Assembly: GCA_014762625.1 (NCBI GenBank)
Contig: JABURQ010000107.1
Location: forward strand, 1 to 58,630
DNA length: 58,630 bases
Source of the DNA: Planctomycetaceae bacterium
GTDB taxonomy: Bacteria; Planctomycetota; Planctomycetia; Planctomycetales; Planctomycetaceae
Direction of reading: 5' to 3'
Made by a program: the position numbers and the translations under genes. The notes beneath the pieces were generated by a model that was given only the letters and a program-made list of their open reading frames with translations, was not told the DNA's origin and did not search any database. This document shows, piece after piece, positions 1,785-41,916 of the stretch (position 1 is the stretch's first letter; each line of letters opens with the position of its first letter).

Positions 1785-2024
1785 TCACCAACTCATCCAC
1801 GCTCCGGGACACCCCGCGCACAGCCGCAGTTGATTTGAATATACGTCGCGCAGCTGATCGTGATTCTCTTCAACGGTCTCTGGAGGAGTCGTCTCTACGT
1901 CTGAGAAATCGGAATTCGTGGATTGGCCATCGCCCCCAAATCTGACGACCATCGGCAAGGTCATTAGGATAGCGATCGTCGATAATTGAAAATGATTCCA
2001 TAGATGTCGCCTGGTTAAGATCAA
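1785..2024 (-). CDS. small membrane-anchored protein at the end of metal efflux module 1
   Basis: This 79-residue frame starts at a TTG that overlaps the TGA of the RND pump gene, an arrangement typical of translational coupling. It begins with a basic stretch and one hydrophobic helix (LSTIAILMTLPMVV), followed by an acidic, Thr/Glu-rich tail. I recognise no family. The last dozen residues look unnatural, while a different minus-strand frame stays open with coding-like codons from about 1845 to a TGA at 1657-1659. The gene may therefore be frameshifted, with the complete product running to about 1657. It could instead be a fortuitous frame. From 1463 to 1656 I see no other gene. Confidence 0.35.
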   Translation of the reverse strand: MILTRRHLWNHFQLSTIAILMTLPMVVRFGGDGQSTNSDFSDVETTPPETVEENHDQLRDVYSNQLRLCAGCPGAWMSW

Positions 2025-5000
2025 GTAGTTTGGCCCGCCAACTGCGGCGGTGAAGGTTGAGAATGATCGGCGTGTTCATCGACCAGCGGCACTTCAGTTT
2101 GAGATTCGTTCACGACGCGCTCGGCCTCTTTGATTCCAAACAACAGGAACAATGCCGGATGCACGAAGAAGTCGAGCATCGTGGAACTGATCAATCCTCC
2201 CAGGATCACCGTCGCCACCGGATAGAGAATTTCTTTCCCCGGTTCGCCGGCGGCGAGTGCCAAGGGGACGAGGCCGATTCCTGTCGTCAGAGCAGTCATC
2301 AGCACGGGCGCAAGACGTTCGAGTCCGGCGCGAACGATCATCGATTGGGTCCAGTCCTCCCCTTCATACCGGACCAAATGCAAATAATGATTCAGCAACA
2401 AAATTCCGTTGCGCGAAGCTATTCCCGTCAACGAGATGAAACCGACCATCGCCGCGATTGTGAGCGTCTGCCCCGTGAGGACCAGAGCTGCAACCGAACC
2501 AATAAAGGCCATGGGTAAGGCTGCCATGACTTGCAGCGAGAGATTGACGGAACGGAACATCGTAAACAACACGAGAAACACTCCGGTCATGGAGACGAAG
2601 AACAGGATCGTCAACATCTGCGAAGCTGACTGCTGGCTCTCGAACTGACCGCTGTATTCCACGAAATAACCGGATGGTAACGACTCGACCACCGGCCGGA
2701 CATTGTTTTGAATATCTTGAACCACATCGACGACGCCTCGGTCGGAGACGTTACACTGCACCACGATCCGACGTCGAACATTTTCGCGATTGATGGTGTT
2801 CGGGCCTCCCGAGACATACACCTTCGCTACCGACTCCAGGGGGATTTGGCCCCCTTCCGGGAGGTCGATCACAAGTCGCTTCATTCGATCGATATCCTCC
2901 CGGTAGTCCTCTTTGAGTCGAACCAGCAAATCAAAGGTTCGCTGCCCGTCTAGAACTTGCGAGACGACCTGGCCGTTCATCGCTGTTTCCACAAACTCGT
3001 TCACATCGGCGACCGTCAAGCCGTTCAGCAGAAGTTGATCGCGATTGATCTCGATTCTCAATTGAGGAATGATCACCTGAGGTTCCACCAACAGGTCCGT
3101 CACCCCCGGCACCGTCTCCATCTCGGCTTTGAACTGCTCGGCTTTTTGTCTCAGAATATCTAGATCGTCGCCGTAGATTTTGATTCCGATCTGAGCTTTC
3201 ACCCCGGAGAGCATGTGCGAAATCAGGTGAGCAATCGGCTGTTCGACCGCGGTGACGATACCGGGAATATCCTCCATGGCGTGTCGAATTTCTTCGAGTT
3301 GATCCTCGCGGGATCGCGGAGAATCGGGGTCGAGTTCGAGGATCATCTCGCTCATATTGACCCCTTCGGCGTGTTCGTCGAGTTCCGCTCGCCCCGTTCT
3401 TCTGACGAAGCCCACGATGTCGGTAATCTCCATCAGTTTCTCTTCGACTGTCCCGGCGATCTCATTCGAAGTCGTGAGTGAGGTTCCCGGAGGCAAGACG
3501 ACATTTAATTGCACGGATCCTTCATTAAACGGGGGGAGAAAGTCGCGATCCAGATTCAGGACGAACAGCCCCGCGAACGCCACAGCGATCGTCGTGAGTG
3601 TGAGATTCAGTCGCGGAAAGCTGAGGCTGAAGCGGATCACTTTTTGTCCGCCCCATTTCAAACACCGCAAAAAGAGTCCGTCGCGTTCCTCATGAGATTC
3701 CCCTTCGGTGTACGAGGAAGGTTTTCCCAACAACCAATACGAAAGCACAGGCGTGACTGTGAGTGAGACCAGCAATGAAGAAAGGATCGAAACGATGTAG
3801 GCCACTCCCAACGGCGCGAATAAGCGTCCTTCCATGCCTGAGAGACCAAACAGCGGAATAAACACCAGGATCACAATAATCGTCCCGAAGACGATGGAGT
3901 TACGAACTTCCACGCTGGCTTGAAACACAACCAGCAGAGGATGCTTCGGTGCCCCCGCCGCTCGGTTCTCCTTGAGACGCCGAAAAATATTTTCGATATC
4001 CACGATCGCGTCGTCCACGAGTTCGCCGATCGCCACCGCCAGTCCCCCCAAAGTCATGGTGTTGATGGAGAGTCCGAAGAAGTGAAAGACGATCGCAGTC
4101 ATAACGATCGAGAGTGGGATCGCGGTCAACGTGATCATAGTCACGCGAAAATTCATCAGGAAGAGGAACAGGATAATCACCACCAGTGCTCCGCCGTCCC
4201 GAAGCGCCTCAATGACGTTCTCGACCGCCCGATCGATGAAGGATTTTTGTGAGTAGACAGGCACAATCCGAATATCCTCGCCCAGAGTTTCCTGGAGATC
4301 TTCGACAGCCTCCATGATTTCTTCCGTGACGACGACAGTATCGGCGTTCGGCTGCTTATTGATGGTCAACACGACGGCATCGCCACCTGAGAATGTTCCG
4401 TTACCTTCCCGCAGAAAGGCAGAACTGTCGCCCCGTTTGACTTGAGGGCCTTCCTGAATATGAGCAATTTCCGCGAGCGCGACCGGTCTTCCTTCCCGGA
4501 TCGTCACCACAACCTTCTCAAGATCTTCCACGGTTTGAACCCGACCGAGTGCTCTGACCAGAAGCTCGTTGGGGCCTTGTTGGTCGAGGTATCCTCCAGT
4601 GTCGTTTCGGTTACTTTCACTGACGGCTTGTTTCACTTCGTGCAACGTGACTCCATAGCGCAACATCGCGTCAGGATCGATGAGCACCTGAAACTGTTTC
4701 CGCCCGCCTCCCATCGTGAAAATCTGAGACACGCCCGGAATGGTCAATAACCGTTGTCGAACGATCCAATCGGCTTTCGTGCGTAAGTCGAGAGGGCTGA
4801 CATCAGGATCATCACTCCACATTCCCAGCATCAGAATTTGGCCCATAATGGATGAGATCGGCGCAAGAGTCGGCTTGATTCCGGTGGGGAGTCGATCAGA
4901 CACCAGTTGCAGGCGTTCGGCGACGATTTGACGGTCGTCGTAGATGTCCGTCCCCCATTCGAATTCGACATAAATCACCGAAATCCCTACGCCGGACGAA

Positions 5001-5251
5001 CTGCGGACATCCATCACTCCATTCGCTCCGTTGAGCGTTGTTTCGATGGGGAACGTAATGAGGGTTTCGACCTCTTCCGGAGCTAGACCGGGAGCTTCCG
5101 TCATAACCACAACACGCGGTCGATTCAGATTGGGAAAGACATCGATCGGCATTTGCGATGCTTTCCAGGAACCATATCCCGTGAAAAACAGCGCAACGGC
5201 AATAATTAACAAACGCTGTCTCAGCGCAAATCGGATGACTGCATTTAACAT
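2021..5251 (-). CDS. heavy-metal efflux RND permease, CzcA/CusA family
   Basis: A 1076-residue inner-membrane proton antiporter of the resistance-nodulation-division superfamily, of usual length. The start follows an AGGAGGG site. The N-terminal helix leads into SQMPIDVFPNLNRPRVVV, and the central membrane helix carries the metal-RND signature GELVDDAIVDIENIF (Asp 413/414 and the following Glu, the proton-relay residues). The porter domains and the second six-helix block follow. The periplasmic position that reads YMP in copper CusA reads FLPPFNEG here, and the other two CusA methionines are not evident. That argues against copper and for another cation such as zinc, cobalt, nickel or cadmium, though the exact ion is inference. 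It is the third gene of module 1, nine bases after the adaptor gene. No outer-membrane CzcC/TolC gene is adjacent. Confidence 0.9.
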   Translation of the reverse strand: MLNAVIRFALRQRLLIIAVALFFTGYGSWKASQMPIDVFPNLNRPRVVVMTEAPGLAPEEVETLITFPIETTLNGANGVMDVRSSSGVGISVIYVEFEWGTDIYDDRQIVAERLQLVSDRLPTGIKPTLAPISSIMGQILMLGMWSDDPDVSPLDLRTKADWIVRQRLLTIPGVSQIFTMGGGRKQFQVLIDPDAMLRYGVTLHEVKQAVSESNRNDTGGYLDQQGPNELLVRALGRVQTVEDLEKVVVTIREGRPVALAEIAHIQEGPQVKRGDSSAFLREGNGTFSGGDAVVLTINKQPNADTVVVTEEIMEAVEDLQETLGEDIRIVPVYSQKSFIDRAVENVIEALRDGGALVVIILFLFLMNFRVTMITLTAIPLSIVMTAIVFHFFGLSINTMTLGGLAVAIGELVDDAIVDIENIFRRLKENRAAGAPKHPLLVVFQASVEVRNSIVFGTIIVILVFIPLFGLSGMEGRLFAPLGVAYIVSILSSLLVSLTVTPVLSYWLLGKPSSYTEGESHEERDGLFLRCLKWGGQKVIRFSLSFPRLNLTLTTIAVAFAGLFVLNLDRDFLPPFNEGSVQLNVVLPPGTSLTTSNEIAGTVEEKLMEITDIVGFVRRTGRAELDEHAEGVNMSEMILELDPDSPRSREDQLEEIRHAMEDIPGIVTAVEQPIAHLISHMLSGVKAQIGIKIYGDDLDILRQKAEQFKAEMETVPGVTDLLVEPQVIIPQLRIEINRDQLLLNGLTVADVNEFVETAMNGQVVSQVLDGQRTFDLLVRLKEDYREDIDRMKRLVIDLPEGGQIPLESVAKVYVSGGPNTINRENVRRRIVVQCNVSDRGVVDVVQDIQNNVRPVVESLPSGYFVEYSGQFESQQSASQMLTILFFVSMTGVFLVLFTMFRSVNLSLQVMAALPMAFIGSVAALVLTGQTLTIAAMVGFISLTGIASRNGILLLNHYLHLVRYEGEDWTQSMIVRAGLERLAPVLMTALTTGIGLVPLALAAGEPGKEILYPVATVILGGLISSTMLDFFVHPALFLLFGIKEAERVVNESQTEVPLVDEHADHSQPSPPQLAGQTT

Positions 5252-5260
5252 AATACCCTC

Positions 5261-6724
5261 CTAGTGTGAGTGGCCGGCATGCGGATCGACTCCACCCCCG
5301 GATTTGTTCTTGAGGGCCATTTGCATCTGATGCGCGCCTCGTCGCGCGACAATATCGCCTGGAAACAAAGAACCATCATTCTCAATCACGGCTGAACGCT
5401 GGTCTTTGTATTTCACATGCACGGGAATTCTGTCGAAATGCTCTCCATTCTGCTGAAACACGAATGATTCAGCCCCTTCCTGGGTAACGGCATCGACCGG
5501 GAGGACGAATTGATTTTTCCACTCTTCGATGGGAACCAGAAGTTGTAGTCGCTGCCCCGGACGATATTTCCACGAAAGAAATCGCTGTCCTTGGGAATTC
5601 GCTTCGTCTCGAACGATTTTGTTGGGAAGATCCACGAAGAATGAGAGAGTTCGGGAGTTCTGGTCAACACGGTTCGCGATATAAGCGAACGGCAGGTTTT
5701 CCACTTCCTGATAACCATCGGTGCTTTCAAACAATGCCGTCACCGTCCAGTTTCGTCGGGCTGCCTCCGTAACCGCGTTCGCGTCACGCTCAAATGCTCG
5801 CCCCTCGATGAACAGTTGCCCTAAGTCAACCAGTTCGCAAAGCGATTGTCCCGCCTGGACAGATTGTCCTTTCTTCACGTGCAAGTCCTGAATCACAAGC
5901 GGAGAGTAAGGCTCTTCCGAGTGTGAGACCTGCACGACCTTGCGTCCTGTCAGCTTGAATTCCTCTTCACCGTGACTGTCAGTCGACGGGGCGAATATCT
6001 GTAGCGACTTGAGTAAACTTCGAGTCTTAGCCACTTGCTCGATCTGTTCGTCGCTCAGTCCATGTAGCCTCAGGGATTCGCGTTGGGCGTTAATCAGGGC
6101 CGTCAACTTGTCGATGGCATATTCGCGTTCGAGAACGAGCTTGCGGGCAACCGCCCCCGAACTGACAACTCCTTCGAGACGGTTCAGTTCGCGTTTTTCG
6201 ACATCCAGTTCACCGAGCGTTCGAACAAATTCCGTTTGTGTTTTGACGAGATCCTCGTGTGTCAAACGTAATTCAAACAGTAACGTTCCCGGCTGGACCG
6301 CTTCTCCCGACACGGAATGCACATGGGTTACGGTCCCAGTGAGTGGAGTCGAGACTTCAATCCGCGTTCGTCCGGGACGTTCGACAATCACTGACGGAAT
6401 CGAGATTGTTTTTTGAAAAGTCTGGAGTTGAATCGGCTGCAAATACTCGGAAGTCAGGCCGATATTCAATCTTGCCTGATTGGAGAGTGCCAGTGAACTC
6501 GACTCGTCGTGTGCGTGACCGTCGCCATGGTCATGTTCGGCATCGTGATCGTGGCTGGCATGATCGTCTTCAGCAACAGAGCGGCTTGACTCAACCGTCC
6601 CTGAAATCCAATCTGTGAGCGGCAACCACCAGAGATTCCGAGTGAACACTGCGGTAGCAACCACCAGACAAACGAAGGCGGGAAAACCCCATTGCGTCAT
6701 CAGTTGTTTGATTTTGGAAAACAT
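5261..6724 (-). CDS. His-rich RND efflux adaptor (membrane fusion protein, CzcB/CusB type)
   Basis: A 487-residue periplasmic adaptor linking the pump to an outer-membrane channel. It has one N-terminal membrane helix, then a histidine/aspartate-rich segment (residues about 53-76, with DHDAEHDHGDGHAHDE) typical of metal-binding adaptors. A beta-barrel/lipoyl/coiled-coil core follows, with the lipoyl halves around SGEAVQPGTLLFEL and VKKGQSVQAGQSLCEL. The C-terminus ends in a second short His cluster (DPHAGHSH). A GAGGAG ribosome site precedes ATG 6724. Transcription would run from the His/Cys-rich gene at 7331 through this gene into the pump. The two His clusters probably capture divalent metal in the periplasm and hand it to the pump; that role is inferred. 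Confidence 0.88.
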   Translation of the reverse strand: MFSKIKQLMTQWGFPAFVCLVVATAVFTRNLWWLPLTDWISGTVESSRSVAEDDHASHDHDAEHDHGDGHAHDESSSLALSNQARLNIGLTSEYLQPIQLQTFQKTISIPSVIVERPGRTRIEVSTPLTGTVTHVHSVSGEAVQPGTLLFELRLTHEDLVKTQTEFVRTLGELDVEKRELNRLEGVVSSGAVARKLVLEREYAIDKLTALINAQRESLRLHGLSDEQIEQVAKTRSLLKSLQIFAPSTDSHGEEEFKLTGRKVVQVSHSEEPYSPLVIQDLHVKKGQSVQAGQSLCELVDLGQLFIEGRAFERDANAVTEAARRNWTVTALFESTDGYQEVENLPFAYIANRVDQNSRTLSFFVDLPNKIVRDEANSQGQRFLSWKYRPGQRLQLLVPIEEWKNQFVLPVDAVTQEGAESFVFQQNGEHFDRIPVHVKYKDQRSAVIENDGSLFPGDIVARRGAHQMQMALKNKSGGGVDPHAGHSH

Positions 6725-6866
6725 GAGTAAACTCCTCGCGCAGCCCCGATCGGGGCGCGAATCGCGGGTGAATGATGAATCTCATCAACAGTCCAAGTGA
6801 GCGTTATGAATTGCTCGAGGGAGATTCAATCGAGCAGACGCGATCGAAATCGCGTTGGAATCGTGG

Positions 6867-7331
6867 TTAAAGCAGCCACGACTGAAAGAGCGCGCAATGC
6901 TGTTGCGCGGAGGAGATCCCAATATTGCTAGCGACCCCACAGGCTGGAATGAGGAATTTTCTCCCCGAATCGAGTTCAGCAACGTCTTGACTTGCGGAGA
7001 CGAAGAGAACTTGTGCGTGAGAGAGAGCAGTGAGATCGAGCGAGATCGTTTTCAGATACACACAACCCACGGTCCCGCAATGCTGAGTATGATTGCAAGG
7101 CTCTGGGGCATGAGAATCATCGTCCTGACTTTCGAGGTGATGATGCCCGTCATGATCGTGTGCACAATGTTCCGAAGCAGGATCACATTGAGTGATTTCA
7201 CTCGACGAGCCCGAACCGAGACACTCAGAATGATCGTGATGCCAGCAGCACCCCACCACTGTATGCCACAGCATCGTCAGGCAAGTCAGAATGGAGATTG
7301 TGTAGGCAAACATAGTGTTTTGCTGGGCCAA
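6867..7331 (-). CDS. exported His/Cys-rich protein leading metal efflux module 1
   Basis: 154 residues with an N-terminal hydrophobic segment (YTISILTCLTMLWHTVV) that should act as a signal or anchor. Next is a dense His/Cys/Asp region (CCWHHDHSEC, HCAHDHDGHHHLE, CNHTQHC), then a less biased half ending in LFQSWLL. I know no named family. Its composition and its place as first gene before adaptor and pump suggest a periplasmic metal buffer or sensor. The Cys-rich protein at 35343-35804 has the same length, the same position in its operon and a near-identical C-terminal tail (LFCSWLI). An AT-rich stretch just upstream offers TTGATA (7371-7366) and TACTGA (7348-7343) 17 bases apart, a weak promoter candidate that would leave almost no leader. 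No ribosome site is obvious. Confidence 0.65.
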   Translation of the reverse strand: MAQQNTMFAYTISILTCLTMLWHTVVGCCWHHDHSECLGSGSSSEITQCDPASEHCAHDHDGHHHLESQDDDSHAPEPCNHTQHCGTVGCVYLKTISLDLTALSHAQVLFVSASQDVAELDSGRKFLIPACGVASNIGISSAQQHCALFQSWLL

Positions 7332-10739: not shown

Positions 10740-11649
10740 ATTCGTCCTACTGCAAAATCCGATCCTTATCTTGTGCCTAGTGCTTTCTGTTTCTGTCACG
10801 TCCCAAAGCAACGCACAGGAGCCGAGCCTTTTCGGCCAGACGAATCGACTCCCCGCGATCGAAGAATCAGCAACCGCAGAGGGTCTGGACATTGAAAACC
10901 CGGCCATCGTGGCGACCGCTCCGGATCAGGAATCGACAACGACTCGCGAGATTCCAAATTCTCTGAAGCTGATGCTAACTCTGTCGGTCTTCAGTCTGGC
11001 TCCGGCACTCTTAATGATGACCACCTGCTTCGTCCGTTTCACGATTGTCACCAGTTTGTTGAAACAGGCGATCGGCACCCCCAACATCCCCCCCGCGCAG
11101 GTAATGACATCTCTGAGCCTGTTTTTGACATTTCTGGTCATGGCTCCAGTCTGGAAACAGGGATACGAATCTGGAGTCAAACCGTATCTCGAACCACCCG
11201 CCGACCAAACTCCACTGACAGAGATGCAGGCGTTCGAACGAACAATGGTACCGGTTCGCGAATTCATGGGAGGGCAAATCGAACAAACCAGCAATCAGGA
11301 CGCCGTCTGGATGTTCTATGAATATCAACAACAAACCGATCCCACCCAGTCGGTTTCTCTCGCCGAGACGGAAACCCCACAAACTTATCAGGAATTGCCT
11401 CTGTCCGTTCTGCTGCCGGCCTACCTGGTGAGCGAACTGAAAACGGCGTTTCTGATTGGTGTGCAGATTTTTTTGCCGTTTCTAGTGATCGACCTCGTCG
11501 TCGCATCCGTGCTGACAAGCAGCGGCATGATGATGCTTCCCCCGGCGATGGTTTCTCTGCCGATGAAGTTATTACTGTTTGTATTAATTGATGGCTGGCA
11601 TCTGATTGTCGGCATGTTGTTGGAAAGTGTTCGTCCATTAACCGGTTAA
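10732..11649 (+). CDS. fliP: flagellar export gate protein FliP
   Basis: 305 residues with a long N-terminal export signal and low-complexity region (about 80 residues). The FliP core then begins with SLAPALLMMTTCFVRFTIV, followed by LLKQAIGTPNIPPAQVM, LFLTFLVMAPVW, and the C-terminal helices with VLLPAYLVSELKTAFLIGVQ and SSGMMMLPPAMVSLPMKLLL. These are the most conserved FliP segments. FliP forms the pentameric pore of the flagellar type III export gate with FliQ and FliR. Start GTG 10732 overlaps fliO. Confidence 0.95.
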   Translation: MREFVLLQNPILILCLVLSVSVTSQSNAQEPSLFGQTNRLPAIEESATAEGLDIENPAIVATAPDQESTTTREIPNSLKLMLTLSVFSLAPALLMMTTCFVRFTIVTSLLKQAIGTPNIPPAQVMTSLSLFLTFLVMAPVWKQGYESGVKPYLEPPADQTPLTEMQAFERTMVPVREFMGGQIEQTSNQDAVWMFYEYQQQTDPTQSVSLAETETPQTYQELPLSVLLPAYLVSELKTAFLIGVQIFLPFLVIDLVVASVLTSSGMMMLPPAMVSLPMKLLLFVLIDGWHLIVGMLLESVRPLTG

Positions 11650-11680
11650 TTGGAATCCCTACTGAGCAAGCCTGACACTG

Positions 11681-11947
11681 ATGACTTTTGAGACTGCCAT
11701 CGATCTAGGTCGCGATACGTTGCTTCTGGCTTTCAAGCTGGGAGCTCCGCTGTTGCTCGTTGCGCTGGCTGTGGGCTTGATCGTCAGTGTCTTCCAGGCG
11801 GTGACTCAGATTCAGGATCAAACCGTCTCCCACGTCCCCAAGCTGATCGCAACGCTCCTCGCGACCTTGATGCTGATGCCCTGGGCGTTGGGAGAGCTTG
11901 TTGATTTTGCGACGCGACTGATCACCAACATCCCCGGTTCTCTCTAA
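11681..11947 (+). CDS. fliQ: flagellar export gate protein FliQ
   Basis: 88 residues, the normal FliQ length, with two membrane helices: AFKLGAPLLLVALAVGLIVS and LIATLLATLMLMPWALGEL. The loop holds the family hallmark VFQAVTQIQDQTVSHVPK. Four FliQ copies wrap the FliP/FliR core of the export gate. It sits 31 bases after fliP and 7 bases before fliR. Confidence 0.95.
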   Translation: MTFETAIDLGRDTLLLAFKLGAPLLLVALAVGLIVSVFQAVTQIQDQTVSHVPKLIATLLATLMLMPWALGELVDFATRLITNIPGSL

Positions 11948-11954
11948 TTGCCGT

Positions 11955-12815
11955 ATGCTCGAATCGCTGCACGATCTCTGGAACCAATTATCCTCCATCG
12001 AGGGTTCGGATTGGCTTGCGCGGTTGGCATCCGGATATCTGCAGACCTTTTCATTCGTCGCCGCCCGACTTGCGGGATTTGTCTTGTTGCTTCCCTATGC
12101 GACGGGAGGGAAAATGGCTCGACACCTGCAAGTGCTGCTGGTTCTTACGCTTTCGCTGGTACTGACTCCAGCCATTGTCGCGATCTCTCCCGCGAACGCA
12201 CAGCCGGCTCCCTTTGATGTGAACTGGCTGTGGGTAACGTTAATGGAATTTGCCCTGGGAGCCGCGATCGGTCTCGGCGTCGTGCTGTGCCTGTCCGCGT
12301 TTCAAATGGCCGGGGAACTGATCGATCAACAAATGGGACTCCGACCGCAACAGATCTTGTTACAAACGGGAACCTCCGCGCAATCGGTCACGGGACAGTT
12401 TCTGTTTCTCGTTGGTACCGCCGCGTTTCTGACTTTACCCGCTGTGGGACAGGGAAATCGAGGCGGCTTGCTGCTGTTTGTCGACACGCTGATGCAAACG
12501 TTCCAGACACTCCCTGCTGGTTTTGGGACTCTCCCCGACAGACTGGGAGTGGTTGTCGTCGGCTGGGTGCAACATTCGGTCTCCCTGTCTTTACTGGTCG
12601 CGGCTCCGATTCTGGCCTGTGCCATGTTGGTGGCGATGTTCGTGTCGGTTGTGAATCGATCGGTCCCGGATGCTAACACGCTGATGATCGGTTTTCCGTT
12701 ACGGACCCTGGTTTGTCTCACCGTTTTGTTAGTGACTCTTTCGGGAATCACAACGCGGATCACCGACGAAATCCCACGACTCCTCGACGATTTCACTCAC
12801 CGTTTGAACGGATAG
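11955..12815 (+). CDS. fliR: flagellar export gate protein FliR
   Basis: 286 residues, slightly longer than typical FliR, with about six hydrophobic helices. Recognisable pieces are VAARLAGFVLLLP near the N-terminus, LGAAIGLGVVLCLSAFQMAGE, DQQMGLRPQQ (the conserved AGxxIxxQMG region) and the C-terminal VNRSVPDANTLMIGFPLR, close to the family's P-x-x-N-x-F-x-x-G-x-P-L-K/R. FliR is the single-copy component that completes the gate. It follows fliQ by 7 bases and precedes flhB by 12. Confidence 0.92.
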   Translation: MLESLHDLWNQLSSIEGSDWLARLASGYLQTFSFVAARLAGFVLLLPYATGGKMARHLQVLLVLTLSLVLTPAIVAISPANAQPAPFDVNWLWVTLMEFALGAAIGLGVVLCLSAFQMAGELIDQQMGLRPQQILLQTGTSAQSVTGQFLFLVGTAAFLTLPAVGQGNRGGLLLFVDTLMQTFQTLPAGFGTLPDRLGVVVVGWVQHSVSLSLLVAAPILACAMLVAMFVSVVNRSVPDANTLMIGFPLRTLVCLTVLLVTLSGITTRITDEIPRLLDDFTHRLNG

Positions 12816-12827
12816 GAATGCCCGCGC

Positions 12828-13931
12828 ATGAACGATCCGCACGAACAAAAATTCTTTCCCGCCTCTTCGCGCAAACGGCGACAGGCACGCGACAACGGAC
12901 AGGTCGTCGTGAGTCCCGATTTACTGGCGGGAGTCTTTCTACTGGCTGTTACCCTGATCCTTCAGATTTCCGGACACCAACTCCTTGACGATACCGGAAC
13001 TTATCTGCGGGGATCACTCGACCAAATCCAGACGACTTCTCCCGAGAATCCTTCTGACTTAAGCGAACAGTTACTGGGCTTATTCGGTTCCTCGGCCAGA
13101 TATTTCCTCGGGAAGTTATGGCCGATATGGAGTTTGTCCCTGCTCGCCGTGGTTGTAGTCCTCATGCAGACGCGCGGACTCATCCACTGGGCCACACTCA
13201 AGCCAGACCTTCAAAGGATTTCTCCCGCAAATGGACTACAAAAATATTCGCCTGCCGAAATCTGGCGTCGCACACTGACCGTGAGTATCAAGCTGACGGG
13301 ACTTTCGTTGATCGCCTGGACATGGGGCGTTAAACAGCACGAACTCGAATCGCAGGCAACTCTCTCGCAACAAACGAGCGCGGGATTCGAACAGGCCATC
13401 AGTTTTCTGGGGGCGCTGGCTGGAGGCATGATTGTGTGGGGTGTTGTCGATTACATCTGGAGAAGAATTCGATTTGAACGCCAACTGCGGATGTCAGCCC
13501 GGGAAGTCGCCGACGAACAACAACAATTCGATCCCGATCCCAATATCCGACAGAATTCGCAACGATTGCGTGAAAAGTTTTCGTCCAGTCTCAGCTTGAA
13601 CCCGGAGACCGATCTGTTCATTACTAACGGCATGGCAGAGGGAGTCCTGCTGCGATATCAGCCAGAGATTCACGCCGTTCCGATGATTCTGGTCAGGGAA
13701 AGTGGATCGGCGGGAGTGATCCTGCTTCAACGCTGTTTGCAACGTCGCATTCCGATACACGAATCGACAAGTCTGCAGCAATCCCTGTTCCAGCCAGCGG
13801 ATTCATTGTTACCCCAAGATTTGTGGCCCGAAGTTGCAAATATCTACGCAAAATATGCTTCCACAATGAGATCGCAGCCCTTCTCCGCCGAACCTGTCAG
13901 CAGGGAACGTGTCGAAGAATCAGAGGTCTGA
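12828..13931 (+). CDS. flhB: flagellar export switch protein FlhB lacking the NPTH cleavage motif
   Basis: 367 residues with the FlhB plan: a basic N-terminus (PASSRKRRQARDNGQVVVSP), four membrane helices up to about residue 215, a cytoplasmic linker and a C-terminal domain. In canonical FlhB that domain is cut between Asn and Pro of NPTH, which switches export from rod/hook to filament substrates. Here the matching stretch reads LFITNGMAEGVLLRY, so residues 267-270 are Asn-Gly-Met-Ala, with neither the Pro nor the catalytic Thr-His pair. The surrounding pattern (GVLLRY, AVPMILVRESGSAG, QRRIPIHEST) still aligns with FlhB. It is last in the operon. flhA does not follow; two tRNA genes do. Confidence 0.85.
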   Translation: MNDPHEQKFFPASSRKRRQARDNGQVVVSPDLLAGVFLLAVTLILQISGHQLLDDTGTYLRGSLDQIQTTSPENPSDLSEQLLGLFGSSARYFLGKLWPIWSLSLLAVVVVLMQTRGLIHWATLKPDLQRISPANGLQKYSPAEIWRRTLTVSIKLTGLSLIAWTWGVKQHELESQATLSQQTSAGFEQAISFLGALAGGMIVWGVVDYIWRRIRFERQLRMSAREVADEQQQFDPDPNIRQNSQRLREKFSSSLSLNPETDLFITNGMAEGVLLRYQPEIHAVPMILVRESGSAGVILLQRCLQRRIPIHESTSLQQSLFQPADSLLPQDLWPEVANIYAKYASTMRSQPFSAEPVSRERVEESEV

Positions 13932-35342: not shown

Positions 35343-35804
35343 ATGTGGTATCGAACTGTCAAACCCTGGTTGACTGTGCTGCTTGTGCTTTCACAAGTTG
35401 TTGCGACCACTCCTCTTCATGCGAATAGCAGTCATTTTGGGGCGAAATGCTGTTGTACGGAGAAGTCCCCTTCCAATTCCTGTTGCTGCCATCATCAAGA
35501 AGCCCCTGCTTCAAAGTCCTGTTGCCATTCTGCTAAGGCGGAACGCTCGAAAGCTTCGTCGGCCAATCACGGCTGCCAGTCGATTTGCGGGTGTGGATGC
35601 CAGCAGACGACGCAGCAGAAAGCTCCGCTCTCTTCCTCCTCAGATCCAGACGAACTGGTCCAACGCTCGACCGAATTCACAGGCGAGCAAATCGTGGACG
35701 AGGCTGTGAATGCCGGGATTCCCACACGACCGGAGGCACTCGAACGTCACACGTTCTTCTTTGAATTGCCTCAAGAACTGCTTTTCTGTTCCTGGCTGAT
35801 TTAA
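35343..35804 (+). CDS. exported Cys-rich protein leading metal efflux module 2
   Basis: 153 residues. The signal peptide (WLTVLLVLSQVVATTPLHA) is followed by a Cys/His-rich stretch (residues about 36-82) with CCC, SCCCHH, SCCH and CQSICGCGC, giving twelve cysteines in under 50 residues. The second half is less biased and ends in LFCSWLI. It lies about 195 bases before the CusB-like adaptor. The composition resembles a metallothionein-like binder, and a copper-buffering role before export is inferred. Compare the 154-residue His/Cys-rich protein at 6867-7331, with the same operon position and a matching tail. Confidence 0.68.
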   Translation: MWYRTVKPWLTVLLVLSQVVATTPLHANSSHFGAKCCCTEKSPSNSCCCHHQEAPASKSCCHSAKAERSKASSANHGCQSICGCGCQQTTQQKAPLSSSSDPDELVQRSTEFTGEQIVDEAVNAGIPTRPEALERHTFFFELPQELLFCSWLI

Positions 35805-35870
35805 ATCAGCACCTTCTTCCGATCGCTGCTGCGCCGGCGATGAGGAACAGAATTCGCTCACGACCTGACT

Positions 35871-35886
35871 CCACCGAAAGCGGTGG
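35871..35886 (+). repeat. short hairpin between Cys-rich gene and adaptor gene
   Basis: CCACCG, loop AAAG, CGGTGG: a perfect 6-bp stem with a tetraloop in the leader of the adaptor gene. No T-run follows, so it is not a clear terminator; it might set the ratio of the two products. Confidence 0.3.
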
Positions 35887-35999
35887 TCTACTCCGATTGT
35901 TGATCCGCTCAGACTCGATCTCTCAGCGATTTCCACGATCGACAGCAATAGGCTCGTGACTCCCGTTTTCCCGGTCACCCATTAAGGAGGATCCGGCCC

Positions 36000-37847
36000 A
36001 TGGTGCCATCTTCCCATCAAGATCCCAGCCCGAATAACAAACAGGACGATTCCACTCGAAACCAGAGTTCCCCGAGGGTGCAAACTGACGCTCCCTCAGC
36101 AACGCCTCCAAAGGGGCGCTGGAGAGTGATGCCTGTCCTGAGTTATCTCACCCGACCTTTGTTGTATGTATCGGTCGTGATGATCGTGCTCGGCGCGATC
36201 GGATTGGCCCAGAGAGTGGGCTGGATTGAGAAACCTCAATCGAGTCCGACCGGAACAACGGCCCATACGTCCGAGGCCAGTCCTGATTACATTTGTCCCA
36301 TGATGTGTACGCCTCCTCAAAAAGAGCCGGGAAGGTGTCCGGTCTGTGCGATGGAACTGGTACCGGCGAGTTCCGACTCCAATGGGGGCGACGAACGCTC
36401 GATCGTGATCGATCCGGCTTCGCGGCGCGTGGCCAACATTCAGACGGTGGAAGCGAGAGCCCATTCGGCGGAACAGATCATTCATGCGGTCGGCGAAATT
36501 CACTACGACGAAAGTCGTCTCAAGACGATCTCGGCGTACACGGATGGTCGCTTCGATCGTCTCCACATCGATTTTACCGGCGCCGTCGTCACGCGAGGGG
36601 AGCCGTTGGCCACCTTCTACTCACCCGAATTGTATTCCGCTCAGGTGGAGTATCTGCAAGCCTCCCAATCGGTCACTCGACTTTCGGGCCAGGCGCTGGC
36701 GTCGGTCGCGGAATCCAATCGACGTTTGCGCGATAACGCCCGGCAAAGATTGATTGAACTCGGGATGACCGAGGATCAAATCAAATCACTAACCGAAAAC
36801 GGAGCCGCGCTCAGCCGAATGGAAATTGTGGCTCCGATGAGCGGCACCGTGATTGAGAAGCTTGCGGTCGAAGGAGAATACGTCAAAGAGGGCGAGCCGA
36901 TCTTCAAGTTGGCCGACTTATCGACCGTCTGGTTAATGTTGGAGCTGTTCCCCGCTGAGGCCGCGTTATTGGAAAACGGTCAGGCGGTGGCGACGAAGCT
37001 CAAGTCGCTCCCCGATCAGGTATTTCCGGGCGAAATCACTTTTATCTCACCCGAGGTGGATCCGCAGTCCCGCACTGTCAGCGTACGGGTGGCGATGAAA
37101 AACGAGAAAGGCAAATTACGAATCGGCGAATATGCCAAAGCCTCGATCCGGGTTCCCCAGAGTGACTTCGACTCGATCGTCATCCCTCGGAATGCGGTGT
37201 TAATGGCGGCGGACCATTGTGTGGTGTATGTCGAAACCGAGCCGGGACGTTTTGAAATCCGACGCATCGAAACCGGGGCCGTCTGCGGCGATGAAGTCGT
37301 GGTCGTCAAGGGGTTGTCGGTCGGCGAACTCGTCGCCACCAAAGGGAACTTTTTACTCGACTCACAAATGCAACTGGTCGGCAATCCGTCGCTGATTGAC
37401 CCGACCCGAGCCGTCGCTCCACGCGAACTTTATCCCGGTTTCACACCCGAGATGCTGGCCGAAATCGATCAGCTTTCGGCGGCCGATCAAAAGCTGGCCC
37501 TGGAACAGGTCATCTGTCCGGTGACCGATTTCAAACTGGGGTCGATGGGAGTTCCACCCAAAGTCGTGGTGGACGGCAAGCCGGTTTTTCTGTGTTGCGA
37601 AGGTTGCCGTGAGAGCCTGCTGGAGAACGCCGAGGATCATCTGAAGAAACTTCAGGAATACACCCCCGAGACCGAGGGCAAACAACATGAGACGCTCGAA
37701 GAGAATGACGGGCTCCCGCCTCTGGGAGGGATGAGTCTCACGGAAGAAGACGCCACCTTGCCTCCTCTCGGGGAGATGCAATTGATGGCTCCCGAGAAAC
37801 CTCGCACGACTGATGCGCAATCTGACTCAGGGAGAATTCTGCGATGA
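36000..37847 (+). CDS. cusB: CusB-like RND adaptor with N- and C-terminal metal-binding modules
   Basis: 615 residues, longer than usual adaptors (about 400-450). AAGGAGG precedes the ATG. One membrane helix near residues 48-68 is followed by a heavy-metal-binding domain (DYICPM then EPGRCPVCAMELVP; the usual MHP is MMC here). The adaptor core comes next, with the lipoyl element IEKLAVEGEYVKEGEPIFKL. After about residue 500 there is an added Cys module (ICPVTDFKLGSMG, VFLCCEGC), then a tail with two copies of LPPLGxMxL. Such Cys/Met elements bind copper in relatives. The stop overlaps the pump start (ATGA), so the two are made together. Confidence 0.9.
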   Translation: MVPSSHQDPSPNNKQDDSTRNQSSPRVQTDAPSATPPKGRWRVMPVLSYLTRPLLYVSVVMIVLGAIGLAQRVGWIEKPQSSPTGTTAHTSEASPDYICPMMCTPPQKEPGRCPVCAMELVPASSDSNGGDERSIVIDPASRRVANIQTVEARAHSAEQIIHAVGEIHYDESRLKTISAYTDGRFDRLHIDFTGAVVTRGEPLATFYSPELYSAQVEYLQASQSVTRLSGQALASVAESNRRLRDNARQRLIELGMTEDQIKSLTENGAALSRMEIVAPMSGTVIEKLAVEGEYVKEGEPIFKLADLSTVWLMLELFPAEAALLENGQAVATKLKSLPDQVFPGEITFISPEVDPQSRTVSVRVAMKNEKGKLRIGEYAKASIRVPQSDFDSIVIPRNAVLMAADHCVVYVETEPGRFEIRRIETGAVCGDEVVVVKGLSVGELVATKGNFLLDSQMQLVGNPSLIDPTRAVAPRELYPGFTPEMLAEIDQLSAADQKLALEQVICPVTDFKLGSMGVPPKVVVDGKPVFLCCEGCRESLLENAEDHLKKLQEYTPETEGKQHETLEENDGLPPLGGMSLTEEDATLPPLGEMQLMAPEKPRTTDAQSDSGRILR

Positions 37848-40800
37848 AATGGTTAATTGAATTCTGCCTTCGAGAACGATTGTTGATTTCCATTCTGTCG
37901 GTCGGACTGATTGGCTACGGCTGGTACGCAGCACAAAAAGTTCCCGTCGATGCGATCCCGAACGTCGGTGAGAACCAGGTGATCGTGTTGACGAAATGGG
38001 AAGGCCGTTCTCCGAAAGATATTGAAGATCAGGTCACCTACCCGCTTTCGATCGCGCTACAGGCCGTTCCCGGTTCGAAAAGTGTTCGTGGCAAAAGTAT
38101 GTTCGGATTCAGTTTCGTCCAGGTGACCTTCGACGATGACGTCGATTTCTACTGGGCTCGATCCCGAGTCGCGGAACAGCTGACGACGGTCTCCAATTCT
38201 CTGCCGAAAGATGTCACGCCGACGCTCGCTCCGGACGCGACCGCATTGGGACAAATTTACTATTACGTTCTGGATCCTCCCGCCGGAATGGATCTGGCCG
38301 AGTTGCGTTCCCGGCAGGAGTTCTTCATCAAATACGCGTTGCAATCCGTGGATGGCGTGGCGGAAGTCGCTTCGATTGGCGGCTACCTGCGGCAGTATCA
38401 AATTGAAATCGACCCCGATGAACTCCGCTATCACAGCATCCCTCTTAGCCAGGTCATTGAAGCGGTCGAAGCCTCCAATATCGATGTCGGCGCAAAAACC
38501 GTTGAACAAGGGGGCATGGAGTATATCGTTCGCGGGAAAGGTTTTATCGGTGTCGAGAAAACCGAAGCGGAGACCATCGAACAAATCGAAGACACCGTGA
38601 TCGAAACGCAGGACGGCGTTCCCATCACGATCGGGGAACTCGCCACCGTTCAGGTCGGCCCCGCGTTTCGACGCGGTGCGCTCGACTTTAACGGGCAGGA
38701 AGCGGTTGGTGGCGTCGTCGTCATGCGTTACGGCGAGAATCCGAGTGACGTCATCCAGCGGGTCAAAGCCAAGATCAGCTCGCTGGAATCGGAACTCGAC
38801 GGTATCCAGATTGTGGGCGTTTACGACCGCACACAATTGATCGACGAAACGATCTCGACGTTAACAACGGCTCTGTCCGAAGAGACGGTCATTACGATCG
38901 CCGTCGTGGTGCTCTTTCTGCTGCATTTTCGAGCCAGTCTGATCATCGCCATCACCCTCCCGATGGCGGTACTGATGTCGTTTATCGCTATGCATTTCTT
39001 TCACGTTGATGCCAACATCATGTCGCTGGCCGGCATTGCGATCGCGATTGGAACAATGGTCGATATGGGGATCATTATTCTGGAAAGTATCTACGACCAT
39101 TTGGCGGAGTGGGAGGCCGAAGGTTCGCCGGGAGGGGATGAAGGACGACTGGAAGTGATTCGAGATTCCGCCAATGAAGTGGTTCCAGCGGTGATGACGG
39201 CGGTCACTACAACGATTGTGAGTTTTCTGCCGGTCTTCTTTTTGACGGGACGGGATCATCGTCTGTTCGCGCCGCTGGCGTGGACGAAAACCTTTGCCCT
39301 GGCTTCGAGTCTGATCGTGGCGGTCATCGTCGTGCCGATGCTGTGCCGGGTCTTGCTGAAAAGCTCTATATCGTCCACTCCGTTCCGTCTGATATCAGCA
39401 GGGGGACTGGGTCTGCTGGCGGGAGTCCTGTGCCAATTTGTCTGGAGGGACGAAATCCGGACGTTGACGGGGTGTCCGGCAATGTTGAATTCGTTTCTAA
39501 GCCTTTTGATCGGAGCGTTTGCAGGCTACTGGCTTTCCTCGGAGCGGATCCGTCCCTTACAACGCAACCCGGTCAGTCGTCTAGTGCTCTGGCTGTATGG
39601 GGGACGATTGAAATTTGCCCTGAAACACAAAGTCTTCAGTCTCTCTTTTCCGGCGATCATTTTTCTGATCGGCCTCGGAGCCTGGATTGGGTTGCCGACC
39701 GTGCTGCGTCCGTTAGAGAAAGCCGCCAATGTCATGGGAGCCGAGCTGAACGATTTCCCGGGCTACGTTTCGGCCAAACATCTCTTTACCGGACTCCCCA
39801 CCGACGACTGGATCGCCCTGGATGAGGGAAGCTGGTTCTACATGCCGAGTCTCTATCCCGCCTCCAGTTTCAATCAGGCGATGGAGACGTTGCAAACTCA
39901 GGACGCCATGATCAAGCAGATCCCCGAAGTCTCCGATGTGCTGGGGAAAATCGGACGTGTCGATTCCGCTCTCGATCCGGCACCGGCCGCCATGGTGGAA
40001 ACCTACGTCATGCTGAAGCCGAAATCCGAATGGAGAGAGGGGATGACCGAACGGAAGATCTGGGACGAGATCAATGCAGTCGCCACCCTCCCCGGCATCA
40101 CGCCCGCTTCCGCGTTACAGCCGATCGAAGGTCGGGTTGTCATGCTGCAAAGCGGGATCAAAGCCTCGATGGCCGTGCGAATTTACGGTGACGATCTGCA
40201 AGGGCTCTCCGACGCGGCGAAGGCTGTCGCCGAGCATTTGAAAACTCACCATCTGGTGAATCCGGGAACGGTGAATCCCGACATCGTGATGGGGAAACCG
40301 TACGTCGAATTTGAGATTGACCGGAAAGACGCGGCTCGTTACGGCATGAATACCCGCATGGTGAATCAGATTGTGGCGGCGGGATTGGGAGGTGTCGATG
40401 TGACCGAGACGGTCGAAGGCCGGGAACGTTATCCGATTCAAGTACGTTACGAACGTAGCGTGCGGAAGCATTTGGACGACCTACAGGACGTTCCGGTAGT
40501 CACGCATACCAACGAAGTCGTGAAACTGGGAGAGTTGGCCGATGTGGTCACAACGTGGGGCCCGGGAGCGATCAACAGTGAAGACGCGCGTCTCGTGGCG
40601 CATGTCTCGTTCTCTCCGGCAGGCAGTGCGGGCGATCTGGAAACGGTCGATTCCGTTATGAACTCGTTACGGGAAGCACGCGAGAGTGGAGAACTGGTCT
40701 TTCCGGACGGAAATTTCGAACTTCAACCGGTCGGCTCGTTTGAAAATCAGATCGAAGCCAATCGTCGTCTCATGTGGATTGTGCCGGTGGTCATCCTCAT

Positions 40801-41338
40801 CAATTTGCTGCTGCACTATCTCCATTTCCGCAATCTACCGATCTCGCTCGTCGTCTTCTCGGGGATCCCCGTCGCGGCGGCAGGAGGGATGATTCTGGTA
40901 GCCGTGATGGGAGTCGAGATGAATACGGCGATGTGGGTCGGCTTCATTGCACTGTTTGGATTAGCCGCGGATGACGGAATTGTGATGGCGACCTATATGC
41001 GGGACTCTCTTCGGCGGAAAACGATTCATTCGGTCGACGATATCCGGAACGCGATCTATGAGGCAGGCCTCAAACGCATTCGTCCGTGTGTGATGACGAC
41101 GATGACCACCCTGATTGCCTTGATTCCGGTGTTGATATCCACCGGTCGGGGAGCCGACGTCGCTCGGGCGATGGCTTTACCCGTCTTTGGGGGGATGATG
41201 ATCGAACCGTTTACCACCTTCATCGTCCCCACACTTTATTGTGCTTATATGGAATTCAAAATGCAGGTCGGGGCCTCTGACGAAGTCTTCGCTATCGACG
41301 ATCATCAGGATCCGTCGCAAACTTCCGTGGCCGCCTGA
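37844..41338 (+). CDS. cusA: CusA-type copper/silver efflux RND permease with extra membrane insert
   Basis: 1164 residues against about 1045 for typical CusA. The N-terminus (QKVPVDAIPNVGENQVIVL) and the helix IGTMVDMGIIILESIY (Asp 407, Glu 414) mark a metal RND pump. The three methionines that bind Cu(I)/Ag(I) in E. coli CusA are all in place: Met 667 (FYMPSLYP), Met 717 (APAAMVET) and Met 767 (VVMLQSGIK). This supports copper or silver as substrate. Residues about 504-572 form an insertion that includes two more hydrophobic helices (SAGGLGLLAGVLCQFVW and SFLSLLIGAFAGYWL). It is coupled to the adaptor and followed by a secreted Cys-module protein. Confidence 0.93.
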   Translation: MKWLIEFCLRERLLISILSVGLIGYGWYAAQKVPVDAIPNVGENQVIVLTKWEGRSPKDIEDQVTYPLSIALQAVPGSKSVRGKSMFGFSFVQVTFDDDVDFYWARSRVAEQLTTVSNSLPKDVTPTLAPDATALGQIYYYVLDPPAGMDLAELRSRQEFFIKYALQSVDGVAEVASIGGYLRQYQIEIDPDELRYHSIPLSQVIEAVEASNIDVGAKTVEQGGMEYIVRGKGFIGVEKTEAETIEQIEDTVIETQDGVPITIGELATVQVGPAFRRGALDFNGQEAVGGVVVMRYGENPSDVIQRVKAKISSLESELDGIQIVGVYDRTQLIDETISTLTTALSEETVITIAVVVLFLLHFRASLIIAITLPMAVLMSFIAMHFFHVDANIMSLAGIAIAIGTMVDMGIIILESIYDHLAEWEAEGSPGGDEGRLEVIRDSANEVVPAVMTAVTTTIVSFLPVFFLTGRDHRLFAPLAWTKTFALASSLIVAVIVVPMLCRVLLKSSISSTPFRLISAGGLGLLAGVLCQFVWRDEIRTLTGCPAMLNSFLSLLIGAFAGYWLSSERIRPLQRNPVSRLVLWLYGGRLKFALKHKVFSLSFPAIIFLIGLGAWIGLPTVLRPLEKAANVMGAELNDFPGYVSAKHLFTGLPTDDWIALDEGSWFYMPSLYPASSFNQAMETLQTQDAMIKQIPEVSDVLGKIGRVDSALDPAPAAMVETYVMLKPKSEWREGMTERKIWDEINAVATLPGITPASALQPIEGRVVMLQSGIKASMAVRIYGDDLQGLSDAAKAVAEHLKTHHLVNPGTVNPDIVMGKPYVEFEIDRKDAARYGMNTRMVNQIVAAGLGGVDVTETVEGRERYPIQVRYERSVRKHLDDLQDVPVVTHTNEVVKLGELADVVTTWGPGAINSEDARLVAHVSFSPAGSAGDLETVDSVMNSLREARESGELVFPDGNFELQPVGSFENQIEANRRLMWIVPVVILINLLLHYLHFRNLPISLVVFSGIPVAAAGGMILVAVMGVEMNTAMWVGFIALFGLAADDGIVMATYMRDSLRRKTIHSVDDIRNAIYEAGLKRIRPCVMTTMTTLIALIPVLISTGRGADVARAMALPVFGGMMIEPFTTFIVPTLYCAYMEFKMQVGASDEVFAIDDHQDPSQTSVAA

Positions 41339-41457
41339 TGACGAAAAACGGATCAACAAAACAAACGAAACAGGAGTTCGACGTGAACTTCCTCGTCAGC
41401 AGAGACAACGGATTGAACCTGCTGGATTTTATGATGTATCGAATTAGGAGAAGAATC

Positions 41458-41916
41458 ATGAAAACTCTCTTCACATTAACAGTGATCCCCTGCCTGGGAC
41501 TGATCGCCGCAGCCTTCCACGCCGAAGGCCAGGAACCCAAACAGCTCTCGCAACGCGATCAATTGAGAGCCGCCGCACAACAGATTTGTCCCGTCTCGGG
41601 GCAACAACTGGGCGAGCATGGAACTCCCGTTAAAGTGACGGTCGGCAAGCAAAAGGAAGAAGTCTTCCTCTGTTGTCAGGCGTGTCTGAAAGGACAACTG
41701 AATCGCAAACACTGGGGAACCATTCATGCGAACTTTGCGAAGGCGCAGGCAATTTGTCCGGTGATGGAGCAGAAACTTCCCGCAAATCCAAAGTGGACGA
41801 TTGCGGATGGAAAAATTATTTACGTCTGCTGCCCTCCCTGTACGAAAAAGATCGCGGCTGAGGAGGAGAAGTACCTCAGTAAGCTCGACCAGTTGTACGC
41901 AAAGTCTGTGAAGTAG
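41458..41916 (+). CDS. exported protein with two CPV...CCxxC metal-binding modules
   Basis: 152 residues from ATG 41458, chosen for its AGGAGAAG site and the signal peptide that follows (LTVIPCLGLIAAAFHAEG). The mature part has two related modules: ICPVSGQQLGEHG with VFLCCQAC, and ICPVMEQKLP with IYVCCPPC. Both resemble the C-terminal module of the adaptor at about 37505-37645 and the TRASH/YHS-type metal sites. A copper-binding periplasmic chaperone is plausible. The gene follows the pump by about 120 bases in the same direction. Confidence 0.78.
   Translation: MKTLFTLTVIPCLGLIAAAFHAEGQEPKQLSQRDQLRAAAQQICPVSGQQLGEHGTPVKVTVGKQKEEVFLCCQACLKGQLNRKHWGTIHANFAKAQAICPVMEQKLPANPKWTIADGKIIYVCCPPCTKKIAAEEEKYLSKLDQLYAKSVK

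Follow-up and report, generated by a model that had tools for sequence, protein, structure and literature searches.

Two planctomycete protein families encoded ahead of heavy-metal RND efflux genes are candidate nascent-chain metal sensors

To explore the small proteins that head two metal-efflux modules in a planctomycete, we compared their genes with relatives across the phylum and with the genes that they precede. One of the two proteins is Cys-rich and the other His/Cys-rich, and our analysis indicates that both genes are probably upstream open reading frames (uORFs) whose products act as co-translational, nascent-chain metal sensors. We prefer this reading because each family keeps a fixed distance between its ligand motif and its C-terminal tail over a near-random linker, and because the genes are positioned before the genes that they would serve. 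The preliminary description of this DNA had proposed a single family whose ligand stretch is tuned to the metal of the pump and whose tail docks to a shared partner. That interpretation is partly supported, and the shared partner is likely to be the ribosome.

RESULTS

Two metal modules with small lead genes

The window, by which we mean the whole stretch of DNA analysed, comprises 58,630 nt of Planctomycetaceae bacterium (GCA_014762625.1, contig JABURQ010000107.1, positions 1-58,630, forward strand). Its two modules contain the following features.

Cys-type module
35343..35804, plus strand: Cys-type leader protein, 153 aa, ending CSWLI-stop (ORF translation; 24 hits in fetched regions)
35448..35600, plus strand: Cys-rich ligand stretch, C36 to the last conserved CxC (C86) (family alignment)
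35601..35801, plus strand: linker and tail, 67 residues, length kept and sequence variable
35787..35801, plus strand: Cys-type tail codons C-S-W-L-I
35795..35810, plus strand: candidate RNA hairpin with the stop codon within the loop, GCTGAT-TTAA-ATCAGC (a weak class, yet above swaps)
35805..35999, plus strand: 195-nt leader from the Cys-type gene to the adaptor (leader class A-poor and pyrimidine-rich)
36000..37847, plus strand: CusB-like adaptor (B type) with heavy-metal-binding domain (Pfam/NCBIfam)
37844..41338, plus strand: CusA-like RND pump, 3/3 CusA Met sites present (model match, alignment)
41338..41916, plus strand: small TRASH-like double-CxxC protein (weak match, E 0.0046, below cut-off)

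His-type module
6867..7313, minus strand: His/Cys-type leader protein, 148 aa (ATG 7313), ending QSWLL-stop (family alignment)
7062..7253, minus strand: His/Cys ligand stretch, G21-C22-C-W-H-H-x-H to C79-x4-C84 (family alignment)
6870..7061, minus strand: linker and tail, 64 residues
6870..6884, minus strand: His-type tail codons Q-S-W-L-L
6859..6883, minus strand: candidate RNA hairpin with the stop codon within the loop, AGTCGTGG-CTGCTTTAA-CCACGATT
6725..6866, minus strand: 142-nt leader from the His-type gene to the adaptor
5261..6724, minus strand: A-type adaptor (HlyD_D23), N-terminus His-rich (Pfam/NCBIfam)
2021..5251, minus strand: A-type heavy-metal RND pump, CusA Met sites N/M/H (model match, alignment)

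Both ORFs carry the tails originally noted for them (LFCSWLI and LFQSWLL), and the one at 6867-7331 lies on the minus strand. The length of 153 aa given for the Cys-type protein stands. The 154 aa given for the His-type protein does not, as this count rests on a TTG start at 7331 and the family alignment favours the ATG at 7313 (148 aa); the near-equal lengths of the two proteins are thus partly an accident of start-codon choice. The common plan is present in both proteins: a hydrophobic N-terminal helix, a ligand-rich stretch, an unbiased half and Trp at position -3 from the end.

Both window pumps matched the CusA/CzcA family model. When aligned to solved CusA, the B pump has Met at all three CusA sites and the A pump has Asn, Met and His; M573, M623 and M672 we take to be the copper sites of CusA. 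The A pump scored 520 bits against CusA and 493 bits against the zinc pump ZneA, clearly nearer to neither. The two pumps had been contrasted as copper and non-copper. The aligned Met sites support a copper-type B pump, whereas for the A pump the support extends only to its not being CusA-type. Flagellar export genes adjoin the His-type module at window positions 10185-13931, where Pfam identified FliO, FliP, FliR-type (Bac_export_1) and FlhB-type (Bac_export_2) genes.

The lead proteins form two separate families

The proposal that the two proteins belong to one family was not supported. BLASTP of the Cys-type against the His-type window protein gave a best E of 1.0, within the ligand stretches, and hhalign of the two family profiles aligned the last 16 columns only (E 0.077, probability 0.7%), leaving common ancestry of the families unsupported. 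Based on sequence comparison, each window protein is a member of its own planctomycete family. Among 150 genomes from the taxonomic family of the window organism, searched at E<=0.01, the Cys query matched in 25, many of its matches being weak or having internal stops, and the His query matched in 47. The His profile (A1) was built from 25 of 34 loci (L033-L066) and the Cys profile (A2) from 12 of 29 places; the latter left out five places with PPPPK-type tails (L010, L012, L016, L028, L031), two with no credible lead ORF (L022, L026) and also L015, L017-L020, L023-L025, L027 and L030. Of 392 genomes of the phylum, with nine or ten candidates scored per genome, at least 31 contained a match at E<=0.001 to the His profile and at least 19 to the Cys profile. 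A collection of named genomes yielded 23 His-type loci, including Rhodopirellula maiorica, R. solitaria and Lacipirellula limnantheis; the titles of all but one ('bacterium') are planctomycete, counting two MAGs labelled Kuenenia, which we take to be a planctomycete.

Neither window protein passed a cut-off in Pfam or NCBIfam (NCBIfam gave no match at E<=1), and Pfam gave no credible match to members of either family. All 41 His-type members examined have a hydrophobic helix followed by G-C, a candidate lipobox. An AlphaFold model from a shallow alignment of 23 sequences had a confident fold in the signal helix only (pLDDT 58.7, pTM 0.29; pLDDT <50 at residues 109-133), and a Foldseek search with this low-confidence model returned no match.

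Each family has a conserved C-terminal tail

The tails can be summarized as QVWx[LIV]-stop for the His type and CxWx[ITL]-stop for the Cys type. Among 41 His-type members, Q is found at -5 in 27, V at -4 in 33 and W at -3 in 31 (L in 7, F in 3), and the last residue is L, I or V in every case. Among 23 Cys-type members (L175 excluded), C is found at -5 in 22, W at -3 in 19 and I, T or L at -1 in all 23. The background frequency of W at -3 was 5/500 in mechanical ORFs of >=300 aa from the same regions, not all of which are genes. On whether the similarity of the tails is due to chance, the answer is therefore no within each family, given W at -3 against this background, while between the families common descent is unsupported. 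In more distant orders W is often swapped for L or F. We know of no arrest motif that ends in WxPhi; the nearest that we found are the '-stop' tails and a KYxIW motif.

A C-terminus of this kind could also be a degradation signal: a periplasmic PDZ protease might recognize W-x-[LIV]-COOH as a phi-x-phi ligand and, when the protein is metal-free, remove it or trigger an envelope response. The phi-x-phi C-terminus is the class II PDZ pattern, and the His-type members conform to it (W, L or F at -3 and L, I or V at -1 in 41/41). However, Cys-type tails found by the B-adaptor-anchored search described below are un-PDZ-like, with T as the last residue in 15/25 and C at -5 in 23/25, and a PDZ ligand leaves the fixed spacing of both families unaccounted for. 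We consider this explanation highly improbable.

The ligand motif lies at a fixed distance from the tail

In the His-type family, the last CxxxxC is 63.6 residues from the C-terminus (sd 1.64, range 59-66, n=41), with the ligand stretch varying more (sd 5.8, n=41). In the Cys-type family, the distance from the last CxC to the C-terminus is 66-70 residues in 23/24 members, the exception being L175, which has a PPPPQA tail. In sets with <50% identity, spacing was 63.4 (sd 1.88, n=28) for the His type and 67.7 (sd 1.18, n=15) for the Cys type, compared with ligand stretches of sd 4.92 and 5.76, respectively (Levene p 2e-4 and 9e-5). Leaders found by searching from the adaptors gave similar numbers: 63.6 (sd 1.17, n=23) for the A type, where n is 26 leaders minus three without an exact CxxxxC (L204 and L226 left out), and 67.1 (sd 1.94, range 62-70, n=25) for the B type. 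Three spacing outliers of the regex search (37-41 residues) were settled by alignment. In the named genomes, 21/22 full-length loci have an exact CxxxxC at 60-66 residues from the end, taking the last motif where two are present; L201 is without the exact pattern.

The sequence between motif and tail is nearly random. Among the adaptor-anchored leaders, ungapped identity within the linker was 10% (His) and 9% (Cys) compared with 7% for shuffled sequence, and the last five residues were 67% (His) and 50% (Cys) identical. Some pattern is present, as positions -45 and -46 of the A-set linker are hydrophobic in >80%. A nearly random chain of constant length that joins a ligand site to a conserved end looks like a tether rather than a domain.

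Leader type follows pump type

To examine the relationship between leaders and pumps, we first used a leader-found set of 60 fetched regions and the window, giving 41 His-type and 24 Cys-type genes from related, and hence non-independent, genomes. The regions cover 40/45 His-profile places, 18/26 Cys-profile places and five Cys-query places (L180 without a profile match); three further leads inside the fetched regions are included in the totals. The preliminary description had proposed counting how often relatives sit just before RND adaptors. For the His type, the next genes on the same strand are an A-type adaptor and pump in 34/41, one precedes another RND system (adaptor nearest B, at just 88 bits; pump nearest A) and six have no RND pump downstream; this weak 88-bit case aside, none of the 41 precedes a B pair. 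For the Cys type, 14/24 lie before a CusB-like adaptor (four with a small TRASH-like gene between, and one at the end of a contig), none precedes the A type and ten have neither adaptor in the stretch seen (one being 700 nt from the stretch end).

Since loci found through their leaders could bias this linkage, we also searched from the adaptors. Among A-type loci, taken as the best 30 of 100 matching genomes (53-100% identity, with many other adaptors at 34-50%), a His/Cys-type leader is present upstream in 28/30, of which 27 have the GCxHH signature; one of the two misses is at a contig start and the other has no leader found. Among B-type loci, taken as the best match in each of all 30 matching genomes, a Cys-type leader lies within 800 nt upstream in 25/30. 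At the remaining five loci, the contig is cut in L251 and L277, L276 offers just 680 nt of upstream sequence, and L274 and L275 have no leader found. Of the 25 leaders, 18 lie no more than 345 nt from the adaptor and six are separated from it by a TRASH-like gene; in L260 the distance is 788 nt. The A-type adaptor was matched in 100/120 family genomes (E<=1e-40), many of the matches being distant, and the B type in 30/120 (E<=1e-60). Overall, the association of ligand type with pump type has good support, as originally proposed: His-type leaders precede the A pair and Cys-type leaders precede the CusB-like adaptor.

The gene found between some Cys-type leaders and the CusB-like adaptor encodes a small lipoprotein-like TRASH protein (CPIMGG...GFCC.GC) and is present at L122, L164, L172, L178, L253, L261, L262, L266, L267 and L270 (L164 is the same as L266, and L178 the same as L262). 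At L256 and L258, two Cys-type leader-like ORFs precede one CusB-like adaptor.

Some leaders head genes other than pumps

Leaders with no pump behind them are also found before a likely target. Eight Cys-type leads of one genus that end in FCLWLI (L161, L162, L166-L170 and L177) are followed by the gene for a secreted protein (~145 residues) that contains two CxxC repeats; the one checked matched YHS (E 1e-5) and TRASH (4e-4), both below curated cut-offs. Four His-type leads (L126, L142, L153 and L158) are followed by the gene for a secreted protein (~260 residues) whose end is Cys-rich, CC.D.NCKH. Of two checked, one matched Thioredoxin_6 (E 5e-4, below cut-off) and the other had no match. 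Two more His-type leads are found before an ABC ATPase and before a permease, the latter identified by reading.

The main rival to a nascent-chain sensor follows the model of the preliminary description: the mature protein would be a periplasmic metal carrier or buffer (a lipoprotein in the His type) that passes metal to the adaptor or pump while its tail docks to a shared envelope partner. Carriers of the CusF/SilE type offer an analogy. Such a role would suit the agreement between ligand and pump type, and the invariant G-C past the helix in all 41 His types is lipobox-like, as expected of a stable lipoprotein. A docking tail, however, needs no set distance from the ligands, yet spacing in the non-redundant sets has an sd of 1.2-1.9 over a near-random linker. 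The carrier also leaves unexplained both the position of leaders ahead of targets without a pump and the composition of the leader RNA (see below). We regard it as unlikely, though less so than the other alternatives.

Leader RNA and the stop region

In a nascent-chain mechanism, the RNA past the leader's stop codon may also contribute to control. The first 130 nt past the stop in 87 non-redundant leaders have 17.8% A and 57.9% C+T, with C exceeding G in 87%. The corresponding values are 27.3% A and 48.6% C+T upstream of leads (n=53), and 25.6% and 51.1% after the stops of ORFs of >=900 aa (n=75). RNA that loads Rho is expected to be A-poor and pyrimidine-rich, with C over G. Leader composition would thus fit Rho control, as support rather than proof, because the lead-gene coding sequence is itself skewed in the same way, if less strongly (18-20% A, 54-56% C+T). 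A Rho-type leader should also have little structure, whereas folding directly past the stop is slightly more stable here than in shuffles (z about -0.7). Leaders measure 51-324 nt (median 158) for the A type and 18-788 nt (median 205) for the B type. The word TGCGC occurs in 38/58 leaders, for example at window 6725-6866, compared with 19.9 expected from shuffles and 7/58 upstream regions, which are less GC-rich. TGA is the stop codon of 7/65 leads and 15/50 next genes.

The codons flanking the stop could be kept as RNA, forming a regulatory hairpin or an anti-Shine-Dalgarno element to which the peptide is incidental. Pairing that straddles the stop is above swaps (3/1000 for all loci, 1/1000 for the Cys type and 80/1000 for the His type, n=50; 23/1000 in a smaller His set, n=34). 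In the FCLWLI group, conservation is higher in the tail codons than in the remainder of the gene (0.81 vs 0.56, 8 leads), and the same partly holds for six other Cys-type leads (0.60 vs 0.42, few data), so that RNA constraint may act in these two Cys-type groups. A consensus fold of the FCLWLI leaders (alifold, 7/8 leaders) pairs tail codons with the Shine-Dalgarno sequence and start of the next gene; these pairs are invariant, with no covariation, and the neighbouring W-L-I stem has one doubly compensated pair. On the other side, tail codons in eight His-type leads of that same genus vary synonymously like the rest (0.55 vs 0.57 identical codons), so in this His-type group the tail is kept as a peptide. 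Furthermore, the arms of the hairpin differ across loci and the amino-acid tail stays constant. We therefore give an RNA-only explanation little chance, comparable to that of a PDZ signal.

In most FCLWLI leads, a GGAT[TC].ACC-like stretch ~20 nt past the stop pairs with the W-L-I codons, and a CCGUUC/GAACGG stem comes next. As a universal element the stop-straddling hairpin was rejected, being weak though above swaps and non-significant in the His set at n=50. Two tests gave no support for a general role of the tail in masking the ribosome-binding site of the following gene; pairing of that kind was confined to the FCLWLI subgroup, in the consensus fold above. Complementarity between tail and site reached the native level in 80/300 permutations (mean percentile 0.47), and masking the stop region did not raise mean accessibility of the site (0.398 to 0.403, 54 loci). 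L175 (PPPPQA tail) was excluded from the swap, duplex and composition tests.

DISCUSSION

Relation to known nascent-chain regulators

CruR (bp2923 of Bordetella pertussis, DUF2946/PF11162) has CXXC and RAPP motifs 45 residues apart; this distance varies by no more than 1-2 residues among >2000 proteins, and the copper effect was strongly reduced when it was shifted by five. The CruR leader measures 162 bp (PMC9426467). Arrest by CruR has been demonstrated in vitro. The planctomycete genes resemble it in being small uORFs with a probable export signal before metal genes, with a fixed distance from motif to tail and a similar leader length (PMC9426467). CruR control is Rho-dependent, whereas the planctomycete leaders are Rho-like in composition alone (PMC9426467). 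In place of a RAPP tail and a spacing of 45, they have W-x-x-stop and a spacing of 64-70, without a DUF2946 match. With CruR copper lowers an importer, whereas the planctomycete leaders precede exporters, and CruR is reportedly independent of its signal peptide (PMC9426467).

CutF of Rhodobacter capsulatus (DUF2946-like) depends on both its Cys and C-terminal motifs as well as on export by Sec (PMC9973294), and the mature protein is reported to be undetectable in cells. Its layout is similar: an export-type sensor with metal and C-terminal motifs directly before a metal-detoxification gene (PMC9973294). Some relatives of CutF precede CusB, CusA or CzcA genes, and some are His-only (PMC9973294). 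The planctomycete leaders differ from its proline-rich tail and ~45-residue spacing, and the stem-loop that masks the Shine-Dalgarno sequence, shown for CutF (PMC9973294), is not general in them. Such masking is not common to all nascent-chain sensors, as CruR acts through Rho. The search for CutF relatives was restricted to proteins of <150 aa in which PP occurs among the 15 C-terminal residues (PMC9973294), a filter by which the W-tailed planctomycete families would be missed. CzcI of Cupriavidus, before czcCBA, is likewise the lead gene of a metal RND operon and a suggested metal-sensing regulator with no Pro tail, a likeness drawn by description alone (PMC9973294). SecM, VemP, MifM and the '-stop' peptides share an exported-type chain, a conserved C-terminus and control of the next gene, and arrest has been reported to depend on the residues just ahead of the stop, positions -1 to -5; these peptides, however, monitor secretion or insertion rather than metal, and their motifs differ (PMC10987492).

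Membership in DUF2946 (PF11162) was ruled out by the missing profile match and the missing RAPP/PP tail. P0001 gave no match and P0003 an E of 0.58 (11.4 bits vs a cut-off of 23.7). At E<=1, the profile matched 1/25 His and 0/12 Cys members; at E<=0.01 it found none in the organism's own genome. PP is absent from the last 15 residues of both window proteins. RAPP-tailed DUF2946 proteins do occur in Planctomycetota, apart from the W-tailed families (L234 over the cut-off, L236 and L237 below). Another Cys-rich family, with PPPPK- or PPPPQ-type tails, is found within ~120 nt of a pilin-like (GFTLIELLVVIAIIAIL...) gene in the loci inspected (L010, L012/L175, which are the same locus, L016, L028 and L031) and looks like a proline-tailed uORF of similar design.

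The preliminary description knew of no account of such a family. For these sequences that holds: no paper on them was found in literature listings or in PMC9973294, PMC9426467, PMC10987492 and PMC12992588, with many subscription papers and all bioRxiv preprints outside this search. The planctomycete uORFs with a conserved tail mentioned there are LPPP types before secA only. For the kind of system it does not hold, as CruR and CutF are metal-responsive nascent-chain uORFs (PMC9426467, PMC9973294). What is new are the planctomycete families and, possibly, their class of arrest tail.

A model for metal sensing by a nascent chain

The data establish the two families, their linkage to pump genes, the tail, its fixed spacing, selection on the tail peptide in one His-type group and the composition of the leader; from these we infer export during translation, pausing, metal binding, a Rho or hairpin step and the polarity of the response. 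In this model, the signal helix would route the growing chain into SecYEG during synthesis. When the W-x-x-stop codons reach the peptidyl-transferase centre, the Cys/His stretch, 64-70 residues earlier, would be just periplasmic. The authors of the CutF work place its motif, at a spacing of 45 residues, in the SecY vestibule; reckoned in the same way, a spacing of 64-70 would bring the ligands to a point just beyond the membrane, where they could read the periplasm. The hydrophobic aromatic tail would stall the ribosome on the stop codon or immediately ahead of it, and how long the pause lasts would change with metal bound outside. The parked ribosome would cover the tail together with the leader's first nucleotides and, as with CruR, could shield the A-poor, pyrimidine-rich RNA from Rho; alternatively, it could hold the stop-proximal hairpin open. 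As a result the adaptor and pump would be expressed, sometimes with a TRASH-like gene first. Since levels of an efflux pump should increase along with its metal, metal would be expected to lengthen the pause, the polarity of CutF. The choice of ligands would set the metal that is read, with Cys serving the CusA-like pump and His/Cys the A-type pump.

A more specific proposal is that the planctomycete leaders constitute a class of their own, with arrest at 'aromatic-x-hydrophobic-stop', a swappable ligand domain and a 64-70-residue tether to the periplasmic exit of SecYEG, which also heads TRASH/YHS-like and thioredoxin-like genes and evolved apart from the RAPP-type CruR/CutF. We put the chances of this slightly below even. 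If true, it would represent a second, apparently independent route by which a half-made protein senses extracytoplasmic metal, and would extend this kind of sensing from copper to non-copper pumps. It would also add a new class of arrest tail (WxPhi-stop) with its own spacing rule, and would mean that whole families escape the published search, which was confined to proline tails and <150 aa (PMC9973294).
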